A stretch of DNA of 64,000 bases from positions 806,001 through 870,000 of the forward strand of contig NZ_CP058910.1 in the NCBI RefSeq assembly GCF_013415885.1, read 5' to 3'. A program made the translations under genes and the position numbers. This stretch comes from Halosimplex rubrum. GTDB taxonomy: Archaea; Halobacteriota; Halobacteria; Halobacteriales; Haloarculaceae. The notes below the pieces were generated by a model. The model searched no databases, was not told where the DNA came from, and saw only the letters and a program-made list of their open reading frames with translations. Positions 16,996 through 46,223 of this stretch are shown here, in pieces (position 1 is the first letter of the stretch; the number at the start of each line of letters is the position of its first letter).

Positions 16996-17024
16996 GCAGG
17001 GAGGAGCGTAGCGACGACCGAACC

Positions 17025-17115: not shown

Positions 17116-17120
17116 ACCAC

Positions 17121-17216: not shown

Positions 17217-17248
17217 GAGGTCTCGTTTGCTCCGCTCCCTCGCGTCCG

Positions 17249-19449: not shown

Positions 19450-19450
19450 A

Positions 19451-20676: not shown

Positions 20677-20767
20677 TTTGTGATCGGCCTATAAATGGAT
20701 GGTTTGTCTGCCTGCCGTATGGTGATTTTCCCATTCTAGTGCAAGAGCCATTAGTATATTATGCTGC

Positions 20768-22851: not shown

Positions 22852-24741
22852 ATGGAAGCTCTATCGAACCGTGGACGGCTTTCCCTCGGCTGCTGGGTCG
22901 TCGCAGGGGTGCCGATCGCGGCCTCGTTCGTCCAGGCGGCGATCGCGCTCGCCGGCGTCAACGCCCTCGAGATACCCGTTATCGGGGCGATGACGGCGCT
23001 CCTGCAGTCGGTCGCGGTGTTCGACGCCGCGGCCGTCGTGTTCAGGAACAGTCCGGAGGCCCTGCTCGCGCTGTTCGTGCTCGTGCTAGTCGGCTGGCTC
23101 GCCGAAGGTGGCGCCGTGTTCGTCCTGCGAAACCGGACGGCGGGGCTCGGCACCGCGGGGTTCGTCACGCTGTTTTTCGCGCTCTTCCTGCTCGTGTACT
23201 CGCCGCTGTTCGGCGCCGATGTCCCGGCGGTCGAGCTGGCCGGTTTCGTGCTGGTTCCGGTCGTCGCGTCCGGCGCGAGCTGGGCGGCGGTCCTGACCTA
23301 CGAGTGGTCCGAGACGCTGGACGAGGAGACCGAGGAGACCCTCGCGGCTGCGGAGCGCCGAGCGGACGACGCCCGCGACACATTCGACGCGGCGATCCGG
23401 AAGCGGGCCGGCGAGCGGGTCCGCGAGCGGGTCGACACCGTCGTGCCCGACGCCGTCGAGGCGCTCGACGCGCGCGCGGCGTCGTTCCGGGCGGACTGCG
23501 ACGGGGTGACCGACGAGGTCGCGGAGCTCCGGTCGGCGAGCGGCGTCGATAGCCGAGAGCGCAACCAGCGGGCCGACCAGTTGCTGGCGACCGCGGGGGA
23601 CCTGGACGGGCAAGCGGCCGCGGACGACGCCCTCGAGACGTTCCGGACGGCGCTCGCCGACGCGGTTCGCGACCGGTTCGACGACGTCCACGTCGTCTCC
23701 AGATACGGCGAGGCCTACGAGGTCCGAAACGTCCGCGAGTACGCCGAACTCGACCTCCCGTCGCTCGGCCTGACCGCTCAGGTCGGGGGGAACAGACACG
23801 ACCTCGCCGACCGGATCGCCGCCGCGATCGACGAGGGGACAGCGCTGTCGGACGTCGCTCGGGCCGTCGAGCGGGCCGACGAGCACCTCGCCGCGCTGAA
23901 GCGGACGATCGACGAACACGAGTCGGCGGTCGCCGAGGCGACCGAGGCGGCGGAGGAGCGTCTCGAGAGGGTCGCGGCACTGACCGAATCGATGGACGGG
24001 GCGGCCGGCGAGCGACTCTCGGAGTTCCTCGTCGAGGGGCGGTTCGACCGGGAGGGTGCGGACGTCCCGTCGGCGGTCGGCGTCAGGGAACGACTGCGCA
24101 CGGCGCGCGAGGACCTGCACGCGTGCCGGTTCGACGACGCACGACGCCGCGCCGAGGGGGCGCGAGACACCGCCGAGCACCTCGTGGCCACCGCGGAGTT
24201 CTTCGCAAACAGCGTCGTCGCGACGATCGAACAGCGGGTGGAGTCGGTTCCGCTCCCGCCGGATGTCGACCGGGAGTTGGCGGCGGCGATGACCGTCCCG
24301 ATCGGCCGGACGCATCCGGTGAGCGCCACCGTCGACGAGGACACCGTGCGCCTGCGCTACGAGGACGACTCGGTCGACGACGACCGCGGGGCGGCCGACG
24401 GGCCCGCACACCAGCGCTCGGGACCCAGCGTCGACCAGACGGACGCGAACGTCGACGACGTTCGGTATCTCCTTCGGGAGCTCCGGGACGGCGCGTCGAC
24501 GTCGAGCGCCGACGACACCGTCGAGCTGCAGACCGACGCGCTCCCGGAGCGGTACGTCACCGAGCCGCTCCTCTCGGCGGTCGAATCGCTGGCGAGCAGG
24601 CGCTCGGACGTGGTCGAGGTTTCGATCCCGGCGAACGCGCCGCCGGGCTTTCTCACCGTCGTCGTCGCGGACGGGGAGAGCCCCAAATCCGTCGTCGCCG
24701 AACTCTACGACGAGTTCCTCGACACCCAGCGGCCGGACTGA
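22852..24741 (+). CDS. Polytopic membrane protein with long cytoplasmic coiled-coil (island gene A)
   Basis: The 629-residue protein has four or five hydrophobic helices in its first 150 residues and no cleavable signal. The rest (about 155-629) is cytoplasmic and largely helical, with heptad-rich, Ala/Glu/Arg-rich stretches such as EETLAAAERRADDARDTFDA, an Asp-rich linker near 510, and a small C-terminal domain VVEVSIPANAPPGFLTVVVA. It is the first gene of the 11-gene operon and precedes a tubulin-like GTPase gene by 43 bases. I infer a membrane anchor for that GTPase. No family is recognised. Confidence 0.8.
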   Translation: MEALSNRGRLSLGCWVVAGVPIAASFVQAAIALAGVNALEIPVIGAMTALLQSVAVFDAAAVVFRNSPEALLALFVLVLVGWLAEGGAVFVLRNRTAGLGTAGFVTLFFALFLLVYSPLFGADVPAVELAGFVLVPVVASGASWAAVLTYEWSETLDEETEETLAAAERRADDARDTFDAAIRKRAGERVRERVDTVVPDAVEALDARAASFRADCDGVTDEVAELRSASGVDSRERNQRADQLLATAGDLDGQAAADDALETFRTALADAVRDRFDDVHVVSRYGEAYEVRNVREYAELDLPSLGLTAQVGGNRHDLADRIAAAIDEGTALSDVARAVERADEHLAALKRTIDEHESAVAEATEAAEERLERVAALTESMDGAAGERLSEFLVEGRFDREGADVPSAVGVRERLRTAREDLHACRFDDARRRAEGARDTAEHLVATAEFFANSVVATIEQRVESVPLPPDVDRELAAAMTVPIGRTHPVSATVDEDTVRLRYEDDSVDDDRGAADGPAHQRSGPSVDQTDANVDDVRYLLRELRDGASTSSADDTVELQTDALPERYVTEPLLSAVESLASRRSDVVEVSIPANAPPGFLTVVVADGESPKSVVAELYDEFLDTQRPD

Positions 24742-24784
24742 GCGAGGGCGAAAAGCAAAGTGAGTCCCTACCAATAAACTGACA

Positions 24785-26605
24785 ATGGACACGACCTGTA
24801 AGATCTGTTTCGAGGAGGTAGCGGCACCGTCTCTCGAGGCGCATCTCGCGAACCAACACGGGGACAGCCCGGCCTCGGTTCGCGAAGTGTACCCCGAGCA
24901 GTACGACGAACTCTTCGTCGGCGACGAACTCGCGCCCGGGTGGGCCGACGACGCTCCGGCGGACGGAAACGGGGAGTCGGACGGCGACCGTGACGACGGC
25001 GGCCGCGAGGACGGCGAAGCCGGCGCCGGAGCCGCCCGCCAGGCGAGCGACAGCGGGTCCCGGACCGACCGGGCGGTGGCGTCGGGCGGGAGCGGCTCCG
25101 CCTCGGCGCGTACGAGAGAGGAGACGGGGGCGACCGGAGCCGACGGGTCGCGTGCCGGGAACGCCGGCGAGCCGCGGGGAACCGGGACGGGTAGCCCGGC
25201 GGTCGGGCAGGACGCCCCCGGCGCGGAGGGGCTCCAGTCCGGGAAGAAGTGGCTGATGATCGGCGTGGGCGGCGCGGGCAATCACATCATCGACGCGGTG
25301 TTGATGCGCCGCGATACGCTCCGCGAGCGCGACGAGCCGCTCGCGGGCGTCTGGGAGGGCGGACTGGCCGACTACGGGAGCCTCAACACGAACATCGCCG
25401 AACTGGGCGACACTTACTACGCGCGCGAGGACCGCGGCTACGACCGCCAGCAGCTCCTCCAGAACGCGATGATCGCGGCGCGCAAGCACAACCACCAGGG
25501 CGCGGGGCGCAAGTGGACCGTCGGGCGCAAGCTCATGCAGGCCGACTTCGACGGCGAGTCGAACGCGCTCCGGGACCGGTGGGACATCTCGGCGAACAGC
25601 CTCGAGGCGTCGCAGGCGGTGATGCTGGTCCACAGCGTCACCAAGGGGACCGGCTGCGGGGCGACGCCGGTCCTCGCGGAGAACATCAGCGAGATGGCCG
25701 GCCAGGGTGTCGGTCTCGACGACGAACTCGCGGTCACGAAACCGATCCTGAGCTCGGTCATCATCCCCGAGGACGACGACTTCGGCGGGAGCGAGATGGT
25801 CCGCGGCGTCGCGGGGATGGCCCACCTCTCGAAGGCCGTCGACGGGATCATCCCGTTCGACAACCAGCGTCTCGACGAGGTCGGGGCCGACATCTCGGTC
25901 GCCATCGACGAGGAGCGGCTCAACGCCTACAACCCGATCAACTACGTCGACATCAACAGGCTGCTGGTGGCGTTTCTGGAGGCGTTCACGATGTCGTCGA
26001 CGCCCCAGAACTACGACCAGTCGGCGACGCGGCAGATCAACGGCGAGGTGTTCGACGTGCCCGACAGCTTCCGGCCGGCCGAGCCGAAATACCCCGCGGA
26101 CAGCGACCGCGACCACCAGCCGGCGGTCATCATGGCGCCGGTGATCGGACGGTCGTTCGCGTCGTCGTTCGACCGGTCGACGCTGAGCACGCTCGCCCGC
26201 ACCGCGTTGTTCAAGGGTCAGCTCATCGATTTCGACCCCTCGACCGCCTGGGGCGGGTCGTTCATGATCTACGGCCCCGAAGAGAAGATGGAGGAGATCG
26301 CACCGCTGGTCAACGCCAACGAGCTGAAGGACATCCTCAGTGGCGAGGAGTTCCTCGACCGCGGTTCGACCGATCCCGGACAGTCGGTCGACCTGTACGT
26401 CAACCAGCTCGTCGTTCCCGGGATCGACAGCGTCCATCTCTGGGGCGTGCTCTGGAACCCGCAGATCCCGTCGCTCGGCAAGATGTACGACCACGTGAAG
26501 GAGCTGTCCGAACAGAGCGACAGCCAGCAAGCCGACAACGTCCGCGAACTCTGGCCGCTCGTCGAGTCGCTGTTCGGTGCGATGGGCCGCGACGCGATGG
26601 GGTAA
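24785..26605 (+). CDS. Divergent FtsZ/tubulin-superfamily GTPase with N-terminal zinc finger (island gene B)
   Basis: The 606-residue protein starts with a C2H2-type finger (Cys5, Cys8, His20, His25), then a Gly/Asp/Glu-rich linker (about 50-152) and a tubulin-like GTPase domain (about 155-600). The domain has GVGGAGNHIID at its first loop, LNTNIAEL, a T4 loop KGTGCG (about 287-292) in place of GGGTGxG, FDNQRL at the T6 position, and NYVDINRLL near the T7 region. It should bind GTP and may polymerise. The Lys in T4 and only one T7 acidic residue suggest altered catalysis. Neither FtsZ1/2 nor CetZ. Confidence 0.85.
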   Translation: MDTTCKICFEEVAAPSLEAHLANQHGDSPASVREVYPEQYDELFVGDELAPGWADDAPADGNGESDGDRDDGGREDGEAGAGAARQASDSGSRTDRAVASGGSGSASARTREETGATGADGSRAGNAGEPRGTGTGSPAVGQDAPGAEGLQSGKKWLMIGVGGAGNHIIDAVLMRRDTLRERDEPLAGVWEGGLADYGSLNTNIAELGDTYYAREDRGYDRQQLLQNAMIAARKHNHQGAGRKWTVGRKLMQADFDGESNALRDRWDISANSLEASQAVMLVHSVTKGTGCGATPVLAENISEMAGQGVGLDDELAVTKPILSSVIIPEDDDFGGSEMVRGVAGMAHLSKAVDGIIPFDNQRLDEVGADISVAIDEERLNAYNPINYVDINRLLVAFLEAFTMSSTPQNYDQSATRQINGEVFDVPDSFRPAEPKYPADSDRDHQPAVIMAPVIGRSFASSFDRSTLSTLARTALFKGQLIDFDPSTAWGGSFMIYGPEEKMEEIAPLVNANELKDILSGEEFLDRGSTDPGQSVDLYVNQLVVPGIDSVHLWGVLWNPQIPSLGKMYDHVKELSEQSDSQQADNVRELWPLVESLFGAMGRDAMG

Positions 26606-26607
26606 CC

Positions 26608-28236
26608 ATGGTTACGACACTCACACTCGCGGTCGGCGTCGTCGGCTTCGTCGCCGGGCTCGGTGCGGGCGTGCTCGGCTACTGGCGGTTCGCCGGCGAC
26701 GACTCGCCGGACTCGCTGGGGCGCATCGCTTCGAAACTGGACACCGATCCCGACACCGAGGCCGTCGCGGCGGCCGTCGACGACCTCGTCGGCGCCGTCG
26801 AGACGATCGGGCGGGCCGGGGAGTTCCCGGACTCCGTGTCGGTCCCGCGGACGGACCCGCCGGCGGCGCAGGCGTCGGCGCTCGAACGGGCCGTCTCCGA
26901 CCGCGAGGTCGTCGTGTCGACGCCCGACGACGCGTCGTCGGGGTCGTTGGACCCGCTCTCGTCGCCCGACGGCGACTCGACCGCGGGGAACGGCGGGACG
27001 ACGCCGCTCGACGTCGACGCCGCGGCGGAGACGGCCGACTCGACGGAACGGGCGAACCACGTCAGCGAGGCGGCCCAGGCCGTCGAGCGGACGCGGTCGA
27101 CGCGGAGCCGGGACGTCGAGCGACTGCTGGGGTACCTGGCCGACCCCGACGGCGTCGACCAGCGACGCATCGAGGAGACGCTCACGTCGGTCGTCGAGAC
27201 GACCGCCGTCCACCACGAACTCGAGGAGGCGCTCTCGCGGGTCGACACCTCGTCCCTCGACTCGGCCTACGAGGCGACCGCGCTGCGCGACGCGCTCAGG
27301 GATGTCGAGGGCGAGGTCGCCCGGGGCGTGCGCGACCTCGCTGACGGCTACGCCACGACCGTCGAGGCGGCCGCGGACTGCCGGTCGGACCTCGAGTCGT
27401 TCGAACGGGCGGCGACGGACTTGGTCGCCACGGCCGCCGAGCAGACGACGGTCGACCTCTCCGGCGAAGGCTCGACCCGCAGTCAGATGGCCGCGCTGTC
27501 GGCGGCCGTCGACCGCGGCGAGGTGGCGATCCGAGCCGACGAGCAGCGGATCGAACGGGCCGCGACCGACGTCGAGCAACGCGTCGGGCCGGAGTCGTCG
27601 CTCGCCCAGGACCTCGTCGATCAGCTGGCCGAGCGCCGGACCGTCGACGGCCAGGAGTTCGAGGCGACGCTCGCGCGAGTTCTCGAGGCGCTCGACGAGG
27701 CCGAGACGGTGCGCCACCGGCTGGACGACGTCGACCGCGACGCCGTCTTGGACGTGGCCGACGACCTCGCCGAGGCGCTCGACCGGTCCGAACCGGTCGA
27801 GGGGCTCCTCGCCGACCGCGTCGACGAGATCACCGATACCGTCGAGCGGGCCAACGACGCCGACACGGTCGTCGTCTACGCGGCCCGCCGGGAGCTGTCG
27901 TACTACGACCGGACGCTCCTCCCGCTGCTCCGGGAACGCGAGCCCGAAGACACGCAGAACGCGGCGCTGGAGCAGCGCCTCTCGGAGGTCGAACAGCGAC
28001 GGTCCGACATCAGGACGAACTACCCGACCCGCTACCCGGAACACAACCACACCATCCCGATCCACTTCCTGGAACTCGTCGAGGCGCTCCACGAGGCCGC
28101 CACGGACGCCAGAGCCGACGGGGACTCCGAACGGGCCGACGGACTGCTCACCGCCGCGGAGCTCGCGATGGACTGGGTCGAAGAGCTCTACGAGCGCCAC
28201 GCCTACAGCGTTCTCCTCCAGCAGCTCCGGGGCTGA
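26608..28236 (+). CDS. Membrane-anchored coiled-coil protein (island gene C)
   Basis: The ATG at 26608 follows the previous stop by 2 bases and gives 542 residues. One N-terminal transmembrane helix (about 2-26, LTLAVGVVGFVAGLGAGVLG) leaves the rest in the cytoplasm. Residues 40-150 are a low-complexity acidic linker; 150-540 are helical with long coiled-coil-like stretches. It ends in WVEELYERHAYSVLLQQLRG. The arrangement of membrane helix plus long helical region before a tubulin-like gene repeats that of genes A and G. Confidence 0.78.
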   Translation: MVTTLTLAVGVVGFVAGLGAGVLGYWRFAGDDSPDSLGRIASKLDTDPDTEAVAAAVDDLVGAVETIGRAGEFPDSVSVPRTDPPAAQASALERAVSDREVVVSTPDDASSGSLDPLSSPDGDSTAGNGGTTPLDVDAAAETADSTERANHVSEAAQAVERTRSTRSRDVERLLGYLADPDGVDQRRIEETLTSVVETTAVHHELEEALSRVDTSSLDSAYEATALRDALRDVEGEVARGVRDLADGYATTVEAAADCRSDLESFERAATDLVATAAEQTTVDLSGEGSTRSQMAALSAAVDRGEVAIRADEQRIERAATDVEQRVGPESSLAQDLVDQLAERRTVDGQEFEATLARVLEALDEAETVRHRLDDVDRDAVLDVADDLAEALDRSEPVEGLLADRVDEITDTVERANDADTVVVYAARRELSYYDRTLLPLLREREPEDTQNAALEQRLSEVEQRRSDIRTNYPTRYPEHNHTIPIHFLELVEALHEAATDARADGDSERADGLLTAAELAMDWVEELYERHAYSVLLQQLRG

Positions 28237-28290
28237 GTCCCGCTCCGGGACCGACCGGGACGGGGATCGGCCCGCGACTGGCAACCATCC

Positions 28291-28356
28291 GGATACCGAA
28301 CGAACCTGTTCGGATATCAAAATTGATTGATTCGGATACTCTTATCATTCTGGATA
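28291..28356. promoter_or_regulatory. Four phased GGATA direct repeats before gene D
   Basis: GGATA occurs at 28291, 28312, 28334 and 28352, about two helical turns apart, with similar flanks (CCGGATAC, TCGGATAT, TCGGATAC, CTGGATAC). They fill the only sizeable gap in the plus operon, and CTTATC at 28341-28346 between the last two repeats could be the TATA element for the ATG at 28373. They may bind a regulator on one face of the helix. Confidence 0.45.
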
Positions 28357-28372
28357 CGCCTGTTGGGTAGTA

Positions 28373-29596
28373 ATGCCATACCTGTTTGTCGGGGCAGGAC
28401 AAGCGGGAAGCGGGATAGTAGACGACATTTTCGAACATACAAATATGTCAAAGATAGCCACACCTGTTATTTTCAACTCCACAATTAGAGACCTACAGAA
28501 TCTATCGAACGTCGAGGCCGACCGGTGGTACGGGATCGCCGAACAGTACGGGCTCGTTGAGGGCACGACCGAGGGGTTCGAGGAGCAGGTAACGGGTGGA
28601 TTCGGCCGGGACCCGGTCCGGGCCGACGAGGTCATGGACGAACACGCCGACGAGTTGCAGTCCGCGCTGCGGGAGCAGGTGGGTAGCGCGGAGGTCGACG
28701 CGGACGAGGACGAGGTCCCGGGGTCGGGCGACGTGCCGTTCGCGTTCCTGTTTTTCGGCCTGGGCGGCGGGACGGGCTGCGGGATCGCGCCGCACATCGC
28801 GGAGGCGATCTCGTCGTTCACCGACGGCACGACGCGGATCATCGCCGTCTGCGTCCTCCCGAACACCGAGGGACCGGTCGGCGGCGACGAGGAGGAGGCC
28901 AGTCCGAGCAGGCAGGCCTGGAACGCCCGCTACGGGCTCGACCGGATCGAAGACGTCGTCGACGGCGTAGTTCTCGTCGACAACCAGCGCCTCTCCTATC
29001 ACAACGCGGCGGAGGGGCAGTTCACCGAGTACAACGAGTACATCGCCGACGCCGTCGTCGACTTGATCTCCGGGCCGATCCTCGAGCGGATCGACCGGAG
29101 CGACTACGATGTCGACCCGCCGATCATCGACCTGCAGGACATCGTCACGTCGCTGTCGTTCGGCGTCGGGGAAGACGACAGGGAACCGGGGTACGCGGCG
29201 CTCGGGCGATCCGTCGCGATGACGCGCTCGCTGCGCGGATACCTCCTCCCGTTCGTCGGCAGGAAATCGGTCGACGCGCTCGCGCTGGCCAACCTCGCCG
29301 ACTCGAAACAGACGGTCGCGGGCGCCGACTCCCGCGATGCGCGGAAGGCGATCGGCCTCCTGCGGGCGCCGAGCCGGTACATCCGCGAGACGGACTACCG
29401 GATCGGCACGTCGAAGCTCCGCACGTTTCTGACCACGCGCTGCGACGAGGTCAACCTGGGCGCGACGCTCACCCGGCGCAACCTCGTCTCGTTCACCGCC
29501 CTGTTCACCTACCACCGGGACGACATCGACCGGATCGCCGAGATCGAGCGCCTGGCGGCCGAATACGAGGACGAATCGGAGGCGGTCGTCGCATGA
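28373..29596 (+). CDS. Divergent FtsZ/tubulin-superfamily GTPase (island gene D)
   Basis: The 407-residue protein is a GTPase core without extra domains. It has FVGAGQAGSGIVDD at the first loop, the best tubulin signature of the three, FGLGGGTGCGIAP (about 128-140), VDNQRL at the T6 position and IIDLQDIVTSL in the T7 region, where two Asp match the catalytic D-x-x-D of FtsZ. It is therefore the member most likely to hydrolyse GTP. The first 40 codons are strikingly AT-rich compared with the rest. It overlaps gene E by 4 bases (ATGA). Confidence 0.88.
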   Translation: MPYLFVGAGQAGSGIVDDIFEHTNMSKIATPVIFNSTIRDLQNLSNVEADRWYGIAEQYGLVEGTTEGFEEQVTGGFGRDPVRADEVMDEHADELQSALREQVGSAEVDADEDEVPGSGDVPFAFLFFGLGGGTGCGIAPHIAEAISSFTDGTTRIIAVCVLPNTEGPVGGDEEEASPSRQAWNARYGLDRIEDVVDGVVLVDNQRLSYHNAAEGQFTEYNEYIADAVVDLISGPILERIDRSDYDVDPPIIDLQDIVTSLSFGVGEDDREPGYAALGRSVAMTRSLRGYLLPFVGRKSVDALALANLADSKQTVAGADSRDARKAIGLLRAPSRYIRETDYRIGTSKLRTFLTTRCDEVNLGATLTRRNLVSFTALFTYHRDDIDRIAEIERLAAEYEDESEAVVA

Positions 29597-29874
29597 GCCG
29601 TCGGCTCCGGGTCGCCGGAGTCGCGGTCGGGCTGGCGTGTCTCGCGCTCGCGCTCGCGACGGGAGGCGCGGCCGGTCAGGACGAGGCCGACAACGAGTCG
29701 GTGGGGTCGCTGGTCGACGACGCCGGGAATGCGACGCTCGCACTGGAGCGGGCGAGCGACCTGCGCGACGACCGGTTCCGCCACATCGGGAGCGGGGGGA
29801 CCGTCGGACTGGGGCTCGGCCTCGTCGTCGGTAGCATCGCCTCCTTCGGGTTGTGGAGGGCACGGCTCCGATGA
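29593..29874 (+). CDS. Small surface-exposed bitopic membrane protein (island gene E)
   Basis: A 93-residue protein with a signal peptide (about 1-28, ending GGAAG), a short acidic ectodomain of about 40 residues with two N-glycosylation sequons (NESV, NATL), and a C-terminal membrane helix (about 68-88) with the basic tail WRARLR inside. It overlaps both neighbours by ATGA, so it is translationally coupled to the GTPase gene D. It looks like a miniature of gene J. Confidence 0.75.
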   Translation: MSRRLRVAGVAVGLACLALALATGGAAGQDEADNESVGSLVDDAGNATLALERASDLRDDRFRHIGSGGTVGLGLGLVVGSIASFGLWRARLR

Positions 29875-30941
29875 ACAGGCGGCTGGTGTCACTGGCGGGC
29901 GCGATCCTGCTCGTCGCGTTCGCGCCCGGCGCCGCCGGGGCGGCCGACCCGACCGAGCCCTGTTCCGGGGTCGCCGACTCCCTCGACGGCGAGGAGAAGG
30001 CGGTGGTCGCCACGACGGTCGCGGGCACGCGAACGAACGGTTCGGAGATGGTCCTCTACCCCGGAAGTCGACTGTCGCTGACGCTCTGTCAGGCGGACGG
30101 GGAGGCGCTCCGGACCGCGGGCGGCGACCTCTGGGACCTCGGGGCACACCCGGCGATCGCCAACAAGAGCGACGGAGAGACCCACTGGACGGTGACCGTC
30201 GACGGGGCCGACGAGTCCGCGGCGTTCCCCGCGCTCGTGCGGAACCAGTCCCAGGTCGTTCAGGGACCGTCACTTCGGGTCCAGACGGGGCTTCGATACG
30301 ACTCACAGGTCACGAACGGGACGCTCCTGTTCGCGGACGGCGCCTCGCGGGCCGCGGTCGAGCGCAACGAGAGCGACTTCTTGGCGGCCATGGAAGCGGT
30401 TGGGGCGAATACGACGACGCTGAACGGGACGGCGATCGCGACCGGCGAGCCGGTCGACGCCGGGGCGCTCGAACGGGCGAACGAGACGCTGTCGAACATC
30501 ACTGGGGCGACACAGGCTATGACGACGCGAAAGCAAACAACGGAGCGACTGCTCTACGGGCAAGCGGCGAGTCGGATCGGGAACGAAGACGCGCTGACGG
30601 TCATCGAGGCGATGAACGACGAGGAGCGGGCGGTGCGCCGGGACACGCGCGAGCGGTTGCGGGCGTACGCGGCGGCGGTCGACGAGCGGCGCGCGGCGCT
30701 GCGCGACGCCGCCCGGACGAACGTCCTCCTCGGGCTGGTGGTCGGGTGCCTGGTCGGGCTGGTGGCCGGCGCGGTCCGCCCGTATCTGGCTTACCAGGAG
30801 TACGACGACTTCCGCGCGACGACCAGCTCGGGGTCCTACGAACGGCAGGTGGTCTACGCTCCGGTCGCCGTCGGTCTCGCGCTCGTCGCGATCGGGATCG
30901 GGCTCGCGGCCTGGACCGGCGCTCTGGGGGTGATCGCGTGA
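29871..30941 (+). CDS. Secreted-domain membrane protein (island gene F)
   Basis: The ATG at 29871 gives 356 residues: signal peptide (about 1-22, ending AGAA), an ectodomain of about 250 residues with many sequons (for example NGSE, NKSD, NQSQ, NETL) and two cysteines that may pair, then two membrane helices (about 283-305 and 330-352). The ectodomain begins with predicted beta strands and becomes helical. It shares ATGA and GTGA overlaps with genes E and G. No family is recognised; position and glycosylation sites suggest contact with the S-layer. Confidence 0.78.
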   Translation: MNRRLVSLAGAILLVAFAPGAAGAADPTEPCSGVADSLDGEEKAVVATTVAGTRTNGSEMVLYPGSRLSLTLCQADGEALRTAGGDLWDLGAHPAIANKSDGETHWTVTVDGADESAAFPALVRNQSQVVQGPSLRVQTGLRYDSQVTNGTLLFADGASRAAVERNESDFLAAMEAVGANTTTLNGTAIATGEPVDAGALERANETLSNITGATQAMTTRKQTTERLLYGQAASRIGNEDALTVIEAMNDEERAVRRDTRERLRAYAAAVDERRAALRDAARTNVLLGLVVGCLVGLVAGAVRPYLAYQEYDDFRATTSSGSYERQVVYAPVAVGLALVAIGIGLAAWTGALGVIA

Positions 30942-33043
30942 GGCCCGCGACCCGAGCGGTCGGCGGTATCTTCCTGCTGGTCGTGCTCGGCGGCGCCGTG
31001 AGCGCCGGCGTGTTCGTCTCCGTCGGCTCGCAGGTCGCCGTCTGGTCGACGGTGGCGATCGTCCCGCTGCTGGTGGCCGCGGGCGCGCTGTGGGTGCGAA
31101 ACACGATCCACACGACCGGGACGAGCCAGACGGAGTACGCCAAGCGCCGCGCGCGGGAGGTCGGCGAGCAGTTCAAGCAGTTCTGGGAGCGCCGTGAGCG
31201 CGTCCACGAGGCATACCCCGAGCTGTTTGCACAGGGCGACTCGCTGTCGGTCGACGGGGTGGTCACCGACCTCGCCGAGCGAGGCATCGAGTTCGACACC
31301 GACACCGGCGCGCTCTCGCTGTCGGACCGGCACCGCGACCTCGAGGAGATAAACCGACTCGAGGGGGAGATCGAATCGCTCGAGGACCGCCTCGACGCCG
31401 AGATCGCCGACCGCGTCCGCGACGAGGTCGGACGGGTGAACGCGGAGTTCGACCGCCTGTCGGACCTGGTGGCGGTCGACCCGCCGTGCGTCGCCGCCGA
31501 TGTCGCCGACCCCGACGAGACCGACGACTTCCAGTGGCGAGCGGTCGGCGAGCAGTACACCGCGCACCGCGAGTGGGCCGACGAGACGGTCGACGCCGCG
31601 GTCGACCGCGTCCGCTCGACGCTCGAATCCGCGGACGACGTCGACGAAGCGACGGTCGCCGACCACCTCGACGACGCCCGGTCGGCCCGCGCCGCCGGCG
31701 AGTACGCGGCGGCGGTCGACGCGCTCCTGCGGGCGCGGGACGTGCTCCGACAGACCGGCGAGGACGTCTTCCGCTCCGAGACCGCGGCGCTGGAGTCGCT
31801 CGTCGGGACCGTGCGGGACTCGGGCGCCCTTCGGTACGCCGACGACAGCCGCGTCGAGGACCTGGAGGCGGTCGCCGCGGAGGCCGACGCGCTCGACTCC
31901 GCGATGGACATGGACGCGGTCGGGTCCGCGCGGGCGGACCTCCGGAGGGTCTGTTTAGCCGTGCTCGAAGACCTCTCGTCGGACGTCTCGTCGCGGCTCG
32001 CGGCGCTCGACCGCGCGGACCCGCCCGAGGGGTACTACGACCGACCGGACGCGGCGGACATCGACTACGCCGCCCGCCTGCGGGACGTCGACGACCTCGA
32101 GACGTTCGAGCAGCGATGGGGGACTGCGGCCGAACAGCTGACCGAGGCCCTCGACGCGCTCGGACCGAAGGCCGAGGTCGTGGGCGCCTACGACCAGGTG
32201 GCCGAGCGCATCGAGGAGGAACTGCGCTCGACGGGGACCGTCGAAGGCGCGGACCTCCCCGTTCGCGAACACGAGGAGCAGTTTCTCGGGCTGTACTACC
32301 GACAGAACGACGGCGTCGAGTTCGACCCGAGCGCGCCGCTGCTGACGACGGGCGCCGACGGCGGAGAGACCCACACGCTCGAGGTGACGGTCCGGTTCGA
32401 GACGGGCGGTTCCGAACGGGCGGCGACCGTCTCGGTCGCCGGTCCCGGCTTCGAGGACGAGCGGACCGTCGAGACCCACCTCGCGACGACGGTCACGTTT
32501 TCCGAGGTACCGTTCGGCGAGTACACGGTCACGGCGACCCCCGGCGTCGACGACAGCAGCCCCGCGACGACGACGGTCACCCTGGACGGCGACGCCGAGT
32601 GCAAACTCGAGATGGCGGACGTGACGCTGCGCGACCGGCTGTGCGACGACATCGACGACCCCGACACGTACCTGTCGGAGCTCGGCGACCGGTTCGCCGA
32701 CGAGTTCGACGCGGAGGGACATCTGTCGTCGGCGATGTCGTTCCCGATCGACGACGACTACGCGCCCTGTCTGCTCGCGGTCTGGGCCGACCGCGAGGGC
32801 CACTCGGTGACGCTCGCCGACGACACGGTCCTCGTCTACGACGAACGGACGCTGCGGCAGGAGATCGAAAACGTGATCCAGTACAACCTCGAGGCCGGCG
32901 AGACGGTGGCGTTCGACAAACTGCGCGACACCTTCCTGTCCGCGCCAGTTCCCGACGAGGAGCTGACGGCGCTGGTCGAGGGATCCGAGGAGGCCGACGC
33001 CGTTCGGACCGACGACGGCGCGCTCACGAAGGGGGACGAGTAG
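30938..33043 (+). CDS. Two-helix membrane protein with coiled-coil and Ig-like domain (island gene G)
   Basis: The GTG at 30938 overlaps the previous stop (GTGA) and gives 701 residues. Two helices (about 6-50) are followed by a cytoplasmic helical region to about 460 (including RLEGEIESLEDRLDAEIADR), a beta-rich domain (about 475-560) like the carboxypeptidase-regulatory/Ig fold (VTFSEVPFGEYTVTATPGV), and a C-terminal domain with SSAMSFPIDDDYAPCLLAV that faintly resembles the end of gene A. The next gene starts directly at its stop and encodes the third GTPase, repeating the anchor-GTPase order. Confidence 0.8.
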   Translation: MRPATRAVGGIFLLVVLGGAVSAGVFVSVGSQVAVWSTVAIVPLLVAAGALWVRNTIHTTGTSQTEYAKRRAREVGEQFKQFWERRERVHEAYPELFAQGDSLSVDGVVTDLAERGIEFDTDTGALSLSDRHRDLEEINRLEGEIESLEDRLDAEIADRVRDEVGRVNAEFDRLSDLVAVDPPCVAADVADPDETDDFQWRAVGEQYTAHREWADETVDAAVDRVRSTLESADDVDEATVADHLDDARSARAAGEYAAAVDALLRARDVLRQTGEDVFRSETAALESLVGTVRDSGALRYADDSRVEDLEAVAAEADALDSAMDMDAVGSARADLRRVCLAVLEDLSSDVSSRLAALDRADPPEGYYDRPDAADIDYAARLRDVDDLETFEQRWGTAAEQLTEALDALGPKAEVVGAYDQVAERIEEELRSTGTVEGADLPVREHEEQFLGLYYRQNDGVEFDPSAPLLTTGADGGETHTLEVTVRFETGGSERAATVSVAGPGFEDERTVETHLATTVTFSEVPFGEYTVTATPGVDDSSPATTTVTLDGDAECKLEMADVTLRDRLCDDIDDPDTYLSELGDRFADEFDAEGHLSSAMSFPIDDDYAPCLLAVWADREGHSVTLADDTVLVYDERTLRQEIENVIQYNLEAGETVAFDKLRDTFLSAPVPDEELTALVEGSEEADAVRTDDGALTKGDE

Positions 33044-34285
33044 ATGTCGGGCTCCGACACCTACACGCGGTGGGCGGTCCTCGCGGCGGGCGAGGGCGGC
33101 GGGCGCATCGCCTCGAACCTCTTCGGCCGCGCGGACAACCCGGGGATCGACGACCGTATCCTGGTGATGAACACCAACCGCGCGGACATCCGCAACACCA
33201 TCGACCGGATGGAGGCCGAGACGACGATCGACACGGAGTCGATCGAGCTGAACCACACGGTCACCTTCGGCGACCTCGACGGGGTCGGGAACTACTTCCC
33301 CGGCGGCGAGGCCTGCGCCGAGGCGGACCTGGACCGCATCATCGAGCAGCTCGACGCCGCCGAGGTGGAGAACGCCGACGCGTTCCTGTACGTCACGACG
33401 CTGGGCGGCGGGACCGGCAACGGGTCGGTGCCGTATCTCATCAACAGCCTGAAATCGAACCCGCCGTCGGCCGCGCTCGACGACACGATCCACGTGGCGC
33501 TGGCGGCCTGGCCGTACAGCCACGAGGGCGGCCAGCGACACTTCAACGCGGTCTGCGGGCTCTCGCGGCTCCTCCGGTGGTACGACGGCAGCCAGAACGC
33601 CGACATGGTCGTGCTCATCTCGAACTCTCACATCGCGGACGACGCCGGGTTCGAGGATGTGGTCGACCCGGACGGGGACCGGTACTCGACGGTCAACGAG
33701 ATGGCGATCAGCGCGATGGACCTCATGATCGGCGCGGGCCGCGAGACACGCGGGGTCGTCGACGTGAGCGACTACGTGACCTGGCCCTCGCGGCTCGACG
33801 CCTACCACTTCACGCCCGGCGTCGCGCTCGAACAGCCCTCGGTGTTCGAACTCGACCTGCTGTTCGACAAGGCCGCCGACAACGGGTTCGTCCCGCTGGA
33901 CCCGACGACCTCGCGCGTGGTCTACGGGATCGTCCGCGCACCGACTCACCTCGTCGAGCAGGGCGAGTACAGCGAGGCCGAGCTCGACGCGGCGCTCCAC
34001 GAGTGGCTCGACGCCAACGGGTACGACGACATCGTCCACCGGATGACGACGCTGACGCCCGTCGACCGGCGCGATGACACCCTCGACGTCCTGCTCATGT
34101 TCGGCGGCTTCGACCTCGACCCGCTGCTCTCGGAGTCACGCACCTCCTTCGACGCGATCATGGAACAGGCGACCGAGCGCGGCATCCAGTCGGACGTGGA
34201 CACGCCCGGCGAGGAGTTCTCGACGGATCGCTTCCGGGCGATCCGGCGTAACCTCGAGGACTATCTCTCGGCGAGCAGGGGGTGA
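33044..34285 (+). CDS. Divergent FtsZ/tubulin-superfamily GTPase (island gene H)
   Basis: The 413-residue protein begins directly after gene G. It has AAGEGGGRIASNLF at the first loop, MNTNRADI at the position where FtsZ has its NTD motif, the T4 signature LGGGTGNGSVP (about 119-129) and VVDVSDYVTW at the T7 region, where two Asp fit the D-x-x-D catalytic pattern. The T6 region reads ISNSHIADD, unlike the DNQRL of its paralogues. It is a probable GTP-binding polymer subunit. Its stop overlaps a possible GTG, but the next gene more likely starts 6 bases further on. Confidence 0.87.
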   Translation: MSGSDTYTRWAVLAAGEGGGRIASNLFGRADNPGIDDRILVMNTNRADIRNTIDRMEAETTIDTESIELNHTVTFGDLDGVGNYFPGGEACAEADLDRIIEQLDAAEVENADAFLYVTTLGGGTGNGSVPYLINSLKSNPPSAALDDTIHVALAAWPYSHEGGQRHFNAVCGLSRLLRWYDGSQNADMVVLISNSHIADDAGFEDVVDPDGDRYSTVNEMAISAMDLMIGAGRETRGVVDVSDYVTWPSRLDAYHFTPGVALEQPSVFELDLLFDKAADNGFVPLDPTTSRVVYGIVRAPTHLVEQGEYSEAELDAALHEWLDANGYDDIVHRMTTLTPVDRRDDTLDVLLMFGGFDLDPLLSESRTSFDAIMEQATERGIQSDVDTPGEEFSTDRFRAIRRNLEDYLSASRG

Positions 34286-34286
34286 T
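34277..34286 (+). promoter_or_regulatory. Strong Shine-Dalgarno site for gene I
   Basis: AGGGGGTGAT matches the ideal AGGAGGTGAT at 9 of 10 positions and ends 4 bases before the ATG at 34291, which decides for that start over the GTG at 34282. Confidence 0.55.
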
Positions 34287-34290
34287 CCCG

Positions 34291-37200
34291 ATGAGGACAC
34301 AACACCTCCGGACGGCGACGCGCGCGACAGCGACCGCCGCGCTCGTCGCCGTCGCCATCTTGGCGCTGGCTACCGGGGGCGCCGCCGCGGCCGAGGGCGA
34401 CGCCGCGGGACAGTCGGCGGTCGCCGCGGCGACGGCGCCGGGCGGCCCCGCCGCTACCGGTCCGAGCGCCTCGGTCGCCGCGGCGAACGTAACGGCGAAC
34501 CGCACCGGTCCCGACAACGTGACGATCAGCGTCCAACAGGGCCTGTTCCCGCCGAACACGAGTGCCGCCAACGCGACGGTCACGCTCTCGGCGCCGGGGC
34601 GGGACGCGACCGACCCCTACCCGGCCAGCGGGACGCAGTCGGGCGCGTTCGTCTACCGCGTTCCGCTCGCCGACCTCTCGACGGCGGCTCGGGACCTCGG
34701 CTCGGCGACGGTCGCGGTCACGCCCGGCACGCCCAACGCCACCGCCCACGAGGTGTCGCTCGACCTCCGGTCGCTCTCGTTCGGGTCGGCGGACAACGCG
34801 ACGCTCAACGAGTCGACGCTCAGCGTCCCCGTCGACCGATCGCTTGGCGTCGTCGACGGGGCGGCCATCGCGGTCTCGGCGGGGTTCAGCGAGTCGGGGC
34901 CGGTCACTCAGTGGACCGCCCACCTCGACGGGAACGGGACGGGCCGTCTCACCGTCCCGCTGGCCCGGTTCAACCCGTCGCGGCTGCTCAACGAGACGCT
35001 CGCGCTGCAGCCCCAGTTCGGCTTCGAACCGGACGCGCAACTGGCGGTGAACCCGCGCGAGGCGGCGGGCGACGCGACCGTCAATCGAATCGCCGACGGT
35101 CTCGCGGTCCGCCACCCGCTCCTGTTCGAGAGCGTGCGGTACGCGGTCACCGTCGACACGACAGACCCGGACGGCAGCTACGTCCGCGCACACACGCCGG
35201 CTCAGCGCGGGCGTCTGGCGCTCCCCGGGCGGTTGCTCATCGGTGAGCAACGGCGGATCACCGTCGACGCCGCGGCACACTCGACGGCGGTCTTCTCGGT
35301 GACGCACACGGTGTCCCGGCCGGAACGCGTCGTCAACGGGACGGCGCTGAACGTCTCCGGACTCGTCCCGTCGGGGCTCCGCGCGGTCTGGGTCGACAAC
35401 GGAACGGCGGTGACCAAGCTCTCGAACTCGACGACCGAGCGCGGCGCGCTGGCGCTCCCGGCGGATCTCGTCGGGAACGGCGTGGAATCGGTGTTGCTCC
35501 AGGGCGAGACGCTCCAGCCGGTCGGGATCGCCGACGTGGTCGGCACGGCGAGCGCCCAGCAGACGGGCGCTGCCGACGGCGCGACCGCCGGGGCGACCGC
35601 CACCGGCACCGACGGGTCGAGCGGGACGACGACCGAAACCGCGACGGGGAACGCCACCGGGCTCGTCGGTGCCGGCACGACGGCGGCCGACCCGACGCTG
35701 GGTCTCTCAGCGCTCGCCGCGCCGCTGATCGCACTCGTGGTCGGCGTGCTCTGTTTCGGGATCGGGTACTTGCTCGAACAGAACGGAGACAGCGAACACG
35801 GCGCGACCGGCGGTCTCCTGGCGTTCTTCGCGGTGTTCGGAGCGGGGCTCGGCTACTGGCTTGGCGGGAGTTCCGCCAGCGGCGCCCTGCTGTTCGAACT
35901 CGCCGCGATCGCGGGCGGGGTGGTGTTCGGCGCCGCGTATCTGGGCGTCGGAGCCGTAACCCGGACGCGGCCGGCGAGTCAGCGCAACCAGCTAGCGGCC
36001 CTGCTCGTCGCGACGACCGTCCCACTGGCCGCTGCGGCACTGCTGGTCGCGTTCGCGTCGGATCTGTCGCTGCTCGCCGCCGGCGGCGCCTACAGCGCGG
36101 TCGCGGGCGGACTGGTCGGCGTCGCGGCGAACACGGCCGGCGGCGCGAGCGGCGAGGCGGCCGCCGCCGGTGCCGCGACGCGAACGGCGACCGTGACCGT
36201 CCGCCTCGTCGACGACCAACTCGATCGCCGGGTCCGCGACGCCGTCGAGGTGACCGTCACGCGCGCGTCGTCGTTTGATCCCCAGACCGAGCGGGAGCCG
36301 ACGAGCGACGGCACGGCGGCGTTCGACCTCTCGAAGGGGACCTACACCGTCGAGGCAACTTACGGCGGCCGCACGGAGTCGACGGAGATCCAGGTCGACC
36401 GGGACGACCGGTCGGTCGAACTCCGGTTTTCCCCGCGGGCGGTCGCGTTCGCGGTGCAGGACACCGACGAGCGGCCGCTCCCGGACGCCGACGTGACCGT
36501 CGTCGGCGACGACGGGTCGACGACGCGCCCGACCGACGCCGACGGACGGCTGTCGTTCGACGAGATCCCCGCCGGCGTCGACTCGCTGGACGTGAGCGTC
36601 TCCCGGCCTGGCTACGCCGAAAAGTCGCTGACGGTCTCCGTCGGCGGACAACGGACCGTGCCCGTCGAACTGGAGCCGCTCACGGGGACGTTACGGGCGA
36701 CCGCCACGCTCGACGGGCGACCCGTCGACGGCTTCTCGGTGACGGTCACGCCGGAGCGGGTCGACGCGGTCGGCGAGACCGACCGCGACGCGGAGACCGA
36801 CGGGAGCGGGCGGGCGCAGTTCGACGACCTCGCGGTCGGCGAGTACAGCGTCGGCGTGTCGCTCCCGCAGTCGCTCGACGGGTTCGGCACGACGGACGCG
36901 ACGGTCACCGTCGAGGAGGACCGGACAGCGACCGTCGACGTGCCGGTCGTCTTCGAATTCGACCTCTCGCGGGCCCAGCGGGACCGCGTGTCGGACGTAC
37001 GCGCGACGCTGGCGGACATCTCGAGCGCGTCGACCCGCGACACCGCGATCCCGGCCTACTACGCGAGCGTGGTCGAACGCGTCCTGGAGACCGCCGAGTC
37101 GATCCCCGATTCGGGGCACCCGTTCCTCGTCCACCGCACCGACCCGTCGGCGGTCGTCGACGCGTTGCTCGACGCGACGGAGGCCGCCGCCGACCAGATC

Positions 37201-37593
37201 GACGAGGCGATGGGGTCGAAACGCAACGTCGACCTGTTCTCGGCGTGCTCGGACCTGCCCGACGCCGACATCGAGTGGCAGGGATCGATCGCGGTCGACG
37301 ACACGCTCGCGCTCGCCGAGCGCGGCGTCGGCGAGCAGCGCGGCAGGTTCGCCGACCGGCTCGACACCGTCGACGAGGGCATCACCGACGAGCTCAGCGG
37401 ACTGGCGGAGATCAGCCCCGCCCGCGAGATGTGGGACAGCAGTCGAACGCTCGTCCGCGAGAGCACGGGCGTCGACACGACGGAACTCGACTCGGCCGCC
37501 GCGGTCGTCACCGCGGAGGCGCTGCTCGATGCCGTCGAACAGCTCTTCGAGCACGAACCGCTCCGCAAACGCATGAAACAAACCGTATTCTGA
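34291..37593 (+). CDS. Large envelope-spanning protein with Ig-like repeats (island gene I)
   Basis: The 1100-residue protein has a signal peptide (about 1-30), a beta-rich ectodomain to about 460 with many sequons (NVTA, NRTG, NTSA, NETL and others), four to six membrane helices (about 468-610), three carboxypeptidase-regulatory or Ig-like modules (about 630-880, for example PDADVTVVGDDGSTTRP and SFDEIPAGVDSLDVSVS), and a helical C-terminal region. It could connect the S-layer side with cytoplasmic filaments; the side of the Ig modules depends on the exact helix count. Preceded by GTPase gene H. Confidence 0.8.
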   Translation: MRTQHLRTATRATATAALVAVAILALATGGAAAAEGDAAGQSAVAAATAPGGPAATGPSASVAAANVTANRTGPDNVTISVQQGLFPPNTSAANATVTLSAPGRDATDPYPASGTQSGAFVYRVPLADLSTAARDLGSATVAVTPGTPNATAHEVSLDLRSLSFGSADNATLNESTLSVPVDRSLGVVDGAAIAVSAGFSESGPVTQWTAHLDGNGTGRLTVPLARFNPSRLLNETLALQPQFGFEPDAQLAVNPREAAGDATVNRIADGLAVRHPLLFESVRYAVTVDTTDPDGSYVRAHTPAQRGRLALPGRLLIGEQRRITVDAAAHSTAVFSVTHTVSRPERVVNGTALNVSGLVPSGLRAVWVDNGTAVTKLSNSTTERGALALPADLVGNGVESVLLQGETLQPVGIADVVGTASAQQTGAADGATAGATATGTDGSSGTTTETATGNATGLVGAGTTAADPTLGLSALAAPLIALVVGVLCFGIGYLLEQNGDSEHGATGGLLAFFAVFGAGLGYWLGGSSASGALLFELAAIAGGVVFGAAYLGVGAVTRTRPASQRNQLAALLVATTVPLAAAALLVAFASDLSLLAAGGAYSAVAGGLVGVAANTAGGASGEAAAAGAATRTATVTVRLVDDQLDRRVRDAVEVTVTRASSFDPQTEREPTSDGTAAFDLSKGTYTVEATYGGRTESTEIQVDRDDRSVELRFSPRAVAFAVQDTDERPLPDADVTVVGDDGSTTRPTDADGRLSFDEIPAGVDSLDVSVSRPGYAEKSLTVSVGGQRTVPVELEPLTGTLRATATLDGRPVDGFSVTVTPERVDAVGETDRDAETDGSGRAQFDDLAVGEYSVGVSLPQSLDGFGTTDATVTVEEDRTATVDVPVVFEFDLSRAQRDRVSDVRATLADISSASTRDTAIPAYYASVVERVLETAESIPDSGHPFLVHRTDPSAVVDALLDATEAAADQIDEAMGSKRNVDLFSACSDLPDADIEWQGSIAVDDTLALAERGVGEQRGRFADRLDTVDEGITDELSGLAEISPAREMWDSSRTLVRESTGVDTTELDSAAAVVTAEALLDAVEQLFEHEPLRKRMKQTVF

Positions 37594-37594
37594 T

Positions 37595-38629
37595 ATGAGC
37601 CGAACAGCCCAGATCGCACGAATCACGTTCGCTGCCGCCGCCGCGACCGCGCTGGTACTCGCCGGGGTCACGACACCGGTCGGCGCGGCCGCCGCCGACA
37701 GTCACGGGTCCGCCGCGCAGGCGGCCCAGCCAGAGACCCAGGAGGAGTATCTCGACCGGTTCCGGGCGCTCAACGGCACGGCGGCGTTCGCGCAGTATCA
37801 GGAACTGGAAGTGATCCGGTCGCAGGCCGTCCTCGAGGTACAGGTCGGCAACTTCACGGACACCAAACGCCAGCGGATGGGACGCGTCCTCGACCTGCTG
37901 GTCACCTTCCGCGAGGCGGTCGCGGCCCGTGCGAACGGGTCGAACGCGCGGAGCCTCGAACTCGGTAACGAGACGGACTCGATCACCGATTCGCTGCTCG
38001 AGACCGAGGGCGGCCGCCAGTACGCCGTCCTCGCGGACCTGGCGCTGGACCGCTTCTTCGAGCGCAACGGACAGGCGTTCCTCGAGCGGGCGGAGGGCAT
38101 CGAGCGGACGCCCGACCGCCTGACGGTCCTCGAGCGGTCGGCGACCGCGTTTCGCCGGGCCGGCGCGGCCGACCGCTTCTCTCAGATCACGCTGCGCATC
38201 GAGACGACCAGACAGCAGTACCGGTCGGATCTCGAGGAGATGAACGAATCCGCGGCCGTGACCGACGCGTTCCTCGCCTCGTGTGGCGGGTGTGACGCGC
38301 CCACCGAGGCGCTCCAGCGCCACCGGCTGAACGTGTTCGCGCTCTACTCCCAGTCGCTGCGTGCGGACATCGAGGCCCAGCGCGGCGAGACGCTCGCCGC
38401 GCGCCACGCGCTCAGCGATCGGACGGGGCAGTTCCAGTCGGAGACGGCGACCATCGACCGCTACCGCCAGACGCTGGCGGTCACCGGCGCGGGCGTCATC
38501 GTCGGGTTCGCCGTCGTCGTCGCGCTCGTCGGCGCGCTCGTCACCTGGCGCCTGATGCGCTGGCGCCGAGATCTGGTCGACGCACAGGCCGGCGACGTGG
38601 TCCTCGTGGGGGAGATCCTCCATGGCTAA
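37595..38629 (+). CDS. Secreted helical protein with C-terminal membrane anchor (island gene J)
   Basis: The ATG at 37595 lies 1 base after the previous stop. The 344-residue protein has a signal peptide (about 1-32), a mostly helical ectodomain with sequons (NGTA, NFTD, NETD, NESA) and a CGGC pair, one C-terminal membrane helix (about 295-320) and a basic cytoplasmic tail with RWRRDLVDAQAGDVVLVG. The tail ends in a short hydrophobic motif after GD, like the SGDFLV end of gene K, possibly a docking peptide. It overlaps gene K by 8 bases. Confidence 0.75.
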   Translation: MSRTAQIARITFAAAAATALVLAGVTTPVGAAAADSHGSAAQAAQPETQEEYLDRFRALNGTAAFAQYQELEVIRSQAVLEVQVGNFTDTKRQRMGRVLDLLVTFREAVAARANGSNARSLELGNETDSITDSLLETEGGRQYAVLADLALDRFFERNGQAFLERAEGIERTPDRLTVLERSATAFRRAGAADRFSQITLRIETTRQQYRSDLEEMNESAAVTDAFLASCGGCDAPTEALQRHRLNVFALYSQSLRADIEAQRGETLAARHALSDRTGQFQSETATIDRYRQTLAVTGAGVIVGFAVVVALVGALVTWRLMRWRRDLVDAQAGDVVLVGEILHG

Positions 38630-44606: not shown

Positions 44607-46223
44607 CTACTCCTCCGCCTGGTCCCCACCCAGGTCGCGCAGCTGGTCGAACACGTCGCTGCCCCCGCCGACCGCGATCCCGAGCCGGTCCGCCTGCTCT
44701 TCGACGTACCGACGCATCTCCGGGTACCCCTCGAGCTCGTCGACCTCCTCGCGGACGCTGGTGATGAACTGTCGGACCGTCTTGGGCTCGTTGCGGTCGA
44801 GCCGCTCCAGCAGGTACTCCGTATCCGGGACGATCGGCTCGGAACCGTCCTCGACGACACTGCGGACGAGTTCGCGCTGGAGCTCCGTTCCAAGCACGCG
44901 GTCGGCGATCTCGGCCGGGGTGTACCCCGCCGACGCGGCGCCGAGTCGCTCGTAGCTGATCTCCACGTCCGGGTTGGCCGCTTCGAGCGAGTCCAGTTCC
45001 TTGTGCCACACCTGAGACATCACCTCGTCGCCGGGCTGAGGGATGAACTGCTGGACGGGGAAGCGCCGGCTCGCCGCCGGGTCGATCGTGAACGGCATGT
45101 TCGTCGCGCCGATGACCAGCAGGTTGTCCTCGATCTTGTCGGTCCCCATCTCCTGCAGGAAGGCGTTGGTCAGCGACCGCTCGTGGCGCTGGAGGTCGTC
45201 GTCGCTGCGGTCGGGGATGAGCGTCTCGATCTCGTCGAAAAAGAGCACCGCGAAGCCGTCCTGTGCGATGCTGTGGGCGCGGTCGAACACCGCCTCGACG
45301 CGGCGCTCGGCCTCGCCGGGGTACCGCGAGAGGATGTCCCCGCCCTTGACCGGGAGGAACTTCACGTCGCCGTACTCCGACTCGATGTTGGTGTTGTTGG
45401 CCGCCTCGTAGGCGATCGCCTCGGAGACGAGCGTCTTCCCGCAGCCCGGCGGCCCGTACAGCAGCATGCTGCCGCCGCGCGCGGCGAACTCCTCCCCGTA
45501 GCGCCCCTCGACCTCCCGTTTGGTCTCCGGGTCGAACAGCGCGAGCAGCATCTGCGCGGTGCTTTTCACCTCGTCCAGGCCGGCCACGTCCTCCTCGAAG
45601 CTCACCGTCGGCTTCTCCGGGGAGATGTCGATGTCGACGTCCTCGTCGTCGCGGCCCTGACCGCCGCCGCGGCCCTGGCCGCCGGGACCGGGACCGGCCC
45701 CCTGGCTCGGTCCGCGGTCGCGTCGCTCGTCGCGCTCCTCTCGGTCGACGAACTCGAACTCGGTCTCCTCGTCGACCATCAGGGTCGGGAACCCGCGCGG
45801 TTGCAGGTCGAGCACCTCGAAGTGGGTCAGCTCCCCGTCGATGAGCGCGACCTCCTCGATCTCGTGGAGCAGGTAGTTCGTGGACCGCAGAAACGAGGCC
45901 AGCCGCTCCTCGCCGATGTCGCGGGTGTACAGCGTCGCGGACTTGCACGGCTCGACGTCGCGACCGCTGACATCGGCCTCGACCTGGAAGGGCTGCCCGC
46001 GGGCGATCCCGCCGAAGACATCGGCGACGTTCTCGTGGAACTTGACCTTGTTCCGGATGTTGCTCGCGACCAGTTCCTCCTCGGGGTCGACGTAGAAGAA
46101 CGCCGACCGGTTGTTGTGCGTGACGGCGACGATGTTCGACGACCCGACCTTCGTCTCCCCGATCGTGAGGTGCGAAGTCGGCCGGTCCGTCTCCGTCACC
46201 GGCTGTAGATTCAGTTTGCTCAT
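44607..46223 (-). CDS. Cdc48/Vps4-type single-domain AAA+ ATPase (island gene O)
   Basis: The 538-residue protein has a beta-rich N-terminal domain (about 1-160), a Gly/Arg/Asp linker (about 165-200) and one classical AAA domain: Walker A GPPGCGKT (257-264), Walker B VLFFDEIE (about 326-333), sensor GATN (372-375) and an arginine-finger region ASRRF (about 384-388). The domain order resembles Cdc48-like unfoldases cut to one ring, or Vps4 without a MIT domain. I infer that it remodels or disassembles a protein assembly made by this island. It lies 3 bases after gene N. Confidence 0.9.
   Translation of the reverse strand: MSKLNLQPVTETDRPTSHLTIGETKVGSSNIVAVTHNNRSAFFYVDPEEELVASNIRNKVKFHENVADVFGGIARGQPFQVEADVSGRDVEPCKSATLYTRDIGEERLASFLRSTNYLLHEIEEVALIDGELTHFEVLDLQPRGFPTLMVDEETEFEFVDREERDERRDRGPSQGAGPGPGGQGRGGGQGRDDEDVDIDISPEKPTVSFEEDVAGLDEVKSTAQMLLALFDPETKREVEGRYGEEFAARGGSMLLYGPPGCGKTLVSEAIAYEAANNTNIESEYGDVKFLPVKGGDILSRYPGEAERRVEAVFDRAHSIAQDGFAVLFFDEIETLIPDRSDDDLQRHERSLTNAFLQEMGTDKIEDNLLVIGATNMPFTIDPAASRRFPVQQFIPQPGDEVMSQVWHKELDSLEAANPDVEISYERLGAASAGYTPAEIADRVLGTELQRELVRSVVEDGSEPIVPDTEYLLERLDRNEPKTVRQFITSVREEVDELEGYPEMRRYVEEQADRLGIAVGGGSDVFDQLRDLGGDQAEE

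Follow-up and report, generated by a model that had tools for sequence, protein, structure and literature searches.

Gene content of the island

The window analysed here is a whole stretch of 64,000 nucleotides (positions 806001-870000 of a 4.48 Mb contig) from an archaeal genome. It contains an island of about 15 adjacent genes, where those for three different tubulin-like GTPases lie beside genes for membrane proteins and a set of ESCRT-like genes. Genes A, B, C, D, E, F, G, H, I, J and K lie on the plus strand (22852-41510 of the window), followed on the minus strand (41655-49058) by L, M, a small gene, N and O.

The plus-strand part begins with A (22852..24741), a membrane protein with about four N-terminal transmembrane (TM) helices, a helical cytoplasmic region and a separate C-terminal alpha/beta domain. 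Next come B (24785..26605), a tubulin-superfamily GTPase with a zinc finger at its N-terminus, and C (26608..28236), a helical protein that in the window copy has an N-terminal TM helix. D (28373..29596), also a tubulin-superfamily GTPase, is a core member of the island and overlaps E (29593..29871), a protein of 92 aa with two hydrophobic segments. F (29871..30941) has a signal-like N-terminus and two more hydrophobic segments near its C-terminus. The GTG start of G (30938..33043) overlaps F; the protein has two TM helices, a spectrin-like helical region, a beta domain (residues 478-562) and a C-terminal winged-helix-like pattern. After H (33044..34285), the remaining tubulin-superfamily GTPase, lie the envelope protein I (34294..37593), which has hydrophobic segments as well as CarboxypepD_reg domains (4e-14); J (37595..38629), helical, with a signal-like N-terminus and a C-terminal TM helix; and K (38622..41510), with a signal-like N-terminus, an Ig-like region and a C-terminal TM helix. 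Weak similarity links J to the C-terminal part of K.

On the minus strand, L (41655..44603) combines a PQQ beta-propeller (PQQ_2, 6.6e-8) with an IG-like region, and M (44607..46223) is a single AAA ATPase (AAA, 3.8e-28), for which the Pfam matches of note were of AAA type only. A small gene of about 210 aa (46227..46859) separates M from N (46869..47927), a coiled-coil protein at the position of the PspA/ESCRT-III-like gene of the Halo_adaptin system (see below). O (47943..49058) is at the position of the winged-helix gene described for that system, and its Pfam matches are weak only. Elsewhere in the window (54182-59536) there is a large DNA-polymerase-like open reading frame (1784 aa) with an apparent intein inside.

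The three GTPases form separate families

All three GTPases match the Pfam Tubulin family PF00091 (B 6e-13, D 5e-12, H 6e-12), with scores of 49.8, 47.0 and 46.6 bits, above the gathering cut-off of 33. These matches, together with conserved adjacency, bear out the sequence-only reading in its association of membrane proteins carrying cytoplasmic helical parts with three tubulin-family GTPases. Against the FtsZ cell-division equivalog TIGR00065, B, D and H reached 28.0, 39.8 and 34.0 bits, below the cut-off of 295.2; scores of 28-40 bits against 295 rule out that they are FtsZ itself. They also fall outside Tubulin_2/FtsZl1 (PF13809, gathering score 27), for which B scored 14.9, D 17.4 and H gave no score.

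B, D and H retain the T4 and T7-type residues, which are invariant across the rows compared: TKGTGCG and a T7-like FDxxD motif in B, GGGTGCG and DxxD in D, and GGGTGNG and DxxD in H. The C2H2 zinc finger of B (C5, C8, H20, H25) is invariant as well. A degenerate motif near residue 391 of B was considered as its T7 motif and dropped, since an alignment with FtsZ and CetZ favours FDxxD at 423-427.

By profile-profile comparison the three are mutually homologous (96.7-98.4%). In the tree each forms one fully supported clade, and the stem lengths, in changes per column, are 2.4 for B, 2.3 for D and 1.9 for H; B groups with H (95/88) and D is placed, with weak support, beside CetZ (81/58), both on long branches. 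With one clade each and stems of some 1.9-2.4 changes per column, the GTPases are three old families and not recent copies. The same inner groupings are repeated in the three clades, and therefore the genes travel together. The genome that contains the window has five further FtsZ/CetZ-type genes outside the island. In Halobacterium salinarum, cetZ5 (VNG6260G) is reported to be one of three CetZ homologues that change expression over the growth curve (PMC7439475).

Membrane proteins A, C and G

As had been read from the open reading frames and their TM segments, the gene ahead of each GTPase gene encodes a protein with N-terminal helices (A-B, C-D and G-H). The number of N-terminal hydrophobic segments differs among the three, being 4-5 in A, one in C and two in G. 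Two TM helices were found in 24/24 G orthologues; A orthologues have about four TM segments in most cases and a single one in six of them. None of A, C and G matched a family in Pfam or NCBIfam. For the G of the window, basic residues that closely follow the second TM helix suggest, by the positive-inside rule, that its helical part is cytoplasmic.

Homology among all three proteins would be expected had they arisen together, and profile-profile comparison returned it for one pair: A-G gave 88.7% (E 2.6e-6), while A-C (3.3%) and C-G (4.4%) were at the level of the controls, which reached up to 11% for reversed and up to 4.4% for block-shuffled profiles. C thus had no detectable similarity to A or G by this comparison with its reversed and shuffled controls. 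The A-G result varied between 24 and 90% on jackknifing, with several alignment registers, and dropped to 4.5% when restricted to the helical parts. A and G are probably distant relatives, with a similarity that is above controls but whose register shifts between runs. A weak pattern thought to be common to the C-terminal parts of A and G did not hold up: comparison of the C-terminal domain profiles gave 1.7%, and the predicted folds differ.

As modelled by AlphaFold, both G (pLDDT 84.5) and A (pLDDT 87.7) have TM helices followed by long helices. Downstream of these, the G model has a beta domain and a winged-helix-like tail, and the A model an alpha/beta domain that is unlike the C-terminal parts of G. 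In Foldseek searches only the beta domain of the G model (477-562) was matched, to transthyretin/carboxypeptidase-regulatory-like structures, and the A model gave no convincing match.

C orthologues, that of Halobaculum included, exchange their N-terminal membrane module by lineage, among a TM helix, bPH_2, DUF5518, a zinc ribbon and a short hydrophobic end; bPH_2 was seen at two loci (L011, L051), a DUF5518 region at two (L053, L055) and a short hydrophobic N-terminus at others. In Halorussus amylolyticus (L097), C is split into two open frames.

Distribution, gene order and mobility

The A-to-H order is kept in about 38 of the 391 Halobacteria sampled, roughly one in ten haloarchaea, and also in Haloquadratum walsbyi. 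D was found in 41/391 genomes, in one of them weakly (G117), and M in 38/391, always together with D. B, which was searched within D-bearing genomes only, is present in the same 38 genomes as M and absent from the same three, a co-absence that rests on few lineages. In one genome (G340), D and B each occur once whole and once in two fragments, and M as two partial matches only.

Gene order is strongly conserved. In a first comparison with 23 other loci, 21 kept the series A-B-C-D-(E-F)-G-H-I-J-K, and the A-K order was kept in nearly all of 24 named loci; the L-O order is nearly constant too. G and H are butted in nearly all genomes (median gap 1 bp), F overlaps G and J overlaps K. The C-D gap was 66-359 bp in every case. 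The proposal of three copies of one gene order thus survives as adjacency, but not as likeness of its parts: C does not resemble A or G, and C-D is spaced by this gap.

The island occurs both on chromosomes and on plasmids (Halobaculum, Halobacterium, Natrinema), including plasmid pHS2 of Halobacterium salinarum R1, a laboratory archaeon that can be grown in culture. The A-to-K locus is present in H. walsbyi J07HQW1 (L094), and L to O are present in a further genome (G313). The sampled genome of the same genus as the window lacks the island, and in the tree the D of the window groups with that of a same-family genome and of Haloquadratum walsbyi; transfer between lineages is thus indicated. 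Upstream of the island in the window (16920-21000), a tRNA-Arg precedes a stretch of low GC content whose 322-aa open reading frame looks replication-protein-like; this may be an integrated element adjoining the island.

Simpler versions of the island

Reduced forms of the island were found both within and outside Halobacteria. Candidatus Methanoperedens (L108, L115) has D-x-G-H-I with a divergent J-K and lacks A-B-C; B was absent from the Candidatus Methanoperedens genomes searched. Halobellus and one further genome (G042) carry D to K without A-B-C. In G042 this is probably due to loss, since its D nests within Halobacteria in the tree. L was also seen in G042 and in another genome (G048), and M, N and O were not found in the stretches read from Methanoperedens, Halobellus and G042. 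In one Candidatus Methanoperedens locus a canonical FtsZ gene (L115:2010-3248) lies about 7 kb from D.

A second archaeal family of the same phylum has a D-like gene without the T4 loop, followed directly by a G of 425 residues. This short G comprises the TM and helical parts only, and a divergent J-K lies alongside; one genome of the family has full-length D and H. D-like proteins lacking the GGGTG loop, possibly pseudo-tubulins, still adjoin G and mostly J-K at seven loci (L128-L133, L135). At the one examined for it, a Tubulin_2 (FtsZl1-type) gene (L131:5437-8124) is part of the cluster of the D-like pseudo-tubulin and the short G.

From what survives in these other archaea, the core of the island would be D-G plus J-K. 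H appears to have been an early addition to it, and A-B-C a Halobacteria-specific extra with the presence pattern of the AAA ATPase M, so that the island would have grown by accretion around D-G and J-K. GTPase activity may not always be needed, since the D-like protein of the second family has lost the T4 loop, and the core can apparently work without the ESCRT-like genes, as none were seen nearby in core-only lineages. The C/D junction is the point where A-B-C drops out in other lineages, and the C-D "pair" straddles a module boundary.

Relation to known systems

The minus-strand genes resemble the Halo_adaptin ESCRT-like system, for which Haloquadratum walsbyi is the example organism (Makarova et al. 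2024, PMC10936438). According to the main text of that work, the system has a Vps4-like ATPase with a VAT-like N-terminus, PspA/ESCRT-III-like and winged-helix genes upstream of it, PQQ-propeller/IG proteins and two additional IG proteins, along with a membrane protein and a single CetZ-like protein. The island has the same layout of L, M, N and O and includes CetZ-like genes, and H. walsbyi carries it. M agrees with the single-AAA architecture of the Halo_adaptin ATPase; its nearest solved relatives are VCP-like/Cdc48 ATPases, with Vps4 further off. L matches the "adaptin-like" protein through its PQQ propeller (6.6e-8), its IG part being weak. N lies upstream of M and has a coiled-coil-like middle, and no similarity to the ESCRT-III/PspA chains of the PDB was detected for it.

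We file the island as the Halo_adaptin system or a close variant of it. The main text of PMC10936438 gives one CetZ-like and one membrane protein, whereas the island has three tubulin-family GTPases and a series of membrane or envelope proteins (A, C, G, E, F, I, J and K), and its core is found outside Halobacteria as well. What we add to that main text is the set of three GTPases, a second and a third membrane protein and the simpler versions, although the supplementary tables may list some of them.

Several other tubulin-family systems share features with the island. B, D and H belong to the same superfamily as the CetZ and FtsZ of haloarchaea and share with them the GGGTG loop and an acidic T7 motif; unlike these, they form separate long-stem clades, lie inside a conserved island and score far below the FtsZ equivalog cut-off. 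The FtsZl1 family (Pfam Tubulin_2) comprises tubulin-like GTPases for which membrane remodelling together with TM partners has been predicted (Makarova & Koonin 2010, PMC2875224). The likeness to FtsZl1 lies in such TM partners and in the Tubulin_2 gene that shares the D-G cluster in the second archaeal family, but B, D and H are below the Tubulin_2 cut-off, have different partners and lack a long coiled-coil C-terminus. SepF, the archaeal FtsZ anchor (PMC8178401), likewise attaches a tubulin-family filament to the membrane; in contrast, A, C and G are large TM proteins outside any Pfam or NCBIfam family.

Proposed function and alternative explanations

Tubulin-type filaments and ESCRT-type cutters are usually seen as alternatives for dividing or shaping cells. 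In the island, three GTPases of the tubulin family and the membrane proteins that accompany them are kept together with an ESCRT-like set, and the natural simpler versions found elsewhere make it directly testable how the two combine. Our reading, which we hold with about as much belief as doubt, is that this is a mobile ESCRT-associated membrane-remodelling island of the Halo_adaptin type, in which membrane-tethered tubulin-family filaments would act with an ESCRT-like machine. The GTPases would polymerise at the inner face of the membrane in contact with their anchors, with the two-TM protein G probably serving as the main tether. D, G and the envelope proteins J and K would make up the core and H an early second GTPase, and A-B-C would be a later, Halobacteria-specific sub-module that supplies a third GTPase together with membrane proteins that belong to it. 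A-B-C is probably tied to the ESCRT-like step, because its presence pattern is the same as that of M. A task of the filament would be to arrange the envelope proteins (F, I, J, K), whose Ig-like parts would be extracellular, and M-N-O may remodel or cut the membrane, perhaps budding vesicles. A more specific and rather speculative extension of this reading is a stepwise cytoskeleton: a D-G/J-K module, which in one family has a pseudo-tubulin and a Tubulin_2 neighbour, would have gained H and then A-B-C with the ESCRT-like machine, and the outcome would be a mixed filament of three GTPases as the driver of ESCRT-dependent budding in archaea.

How the GTPases and membrane proteins are matched bears on two other explanations, both touched by the rates at which the proteins evolve. 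With the signal shared by all genes removed, residual rate covariation was highest for B-H (0.76), followed by G-H (0.50), D-G (0.34) and D-H (0.33), and near zero for A-B (-0.10) and C-D (0.01). The method is a weak one, and these values argue against tight A-B and C-D partnering more than they prove any other pair. They count against three dedicated pairs (A-B, C-D, G-H), duplicated from one anchor-GTPase pair and each making its own polymer, as do the dissimilarity of C to A and G, the very long separate stems of B, D and H, the finding that elsewhere a D-like gene and not H precedes G, and the C-D gap of at least 66 bp at a module breakpoint. Although the adjacency is conserved, A and G are distantly similar and the three GTPases are of one superfamily, we regard dedicated pairs as unlikely. 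The duplication origin given by the sequence-only reading is mostly wrong, since C is unrelated at the profile level, the stems are long and the pairing varies by lineage, while the adjacency and the association of membrane proteins with GTPases are real; a recent triplication of the pair is ruled out by the dissimilarity of C and the same stems. One mixed filament of two or three of the GTPases (B, D, H), with several membrane proteins as its attachment, is a possibility that we consider less likely than not. The three genes share their branching order and travel together, B and H group in the tree, and the B-H covariation, the top value, would be compatible with a mixed polymer, as would that of D-H. 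The B-H signals may, however, reflect similar constraint or long-branch attraction, and D occurs without B in several lineages.

The island might instead serve the maintenance of plasmids or other elements by TubZ-like segregation and not bend membranes, which we consider very improbable. Several copies are plasmid-borne, the distribution is patchy and the PDB relatives of D include, at greater distance, RepX/TubZ. Against this, neither a DNA-binding partner gene nor a centromere-like array was noticed, although no dedicated search was made for them, and the window copy is on a contig of chromosomal size. The many envelope and TM proteins also speak for membrane remodelling, and the AAA ATPase with the propeller/IG proteins is better suited to such work.
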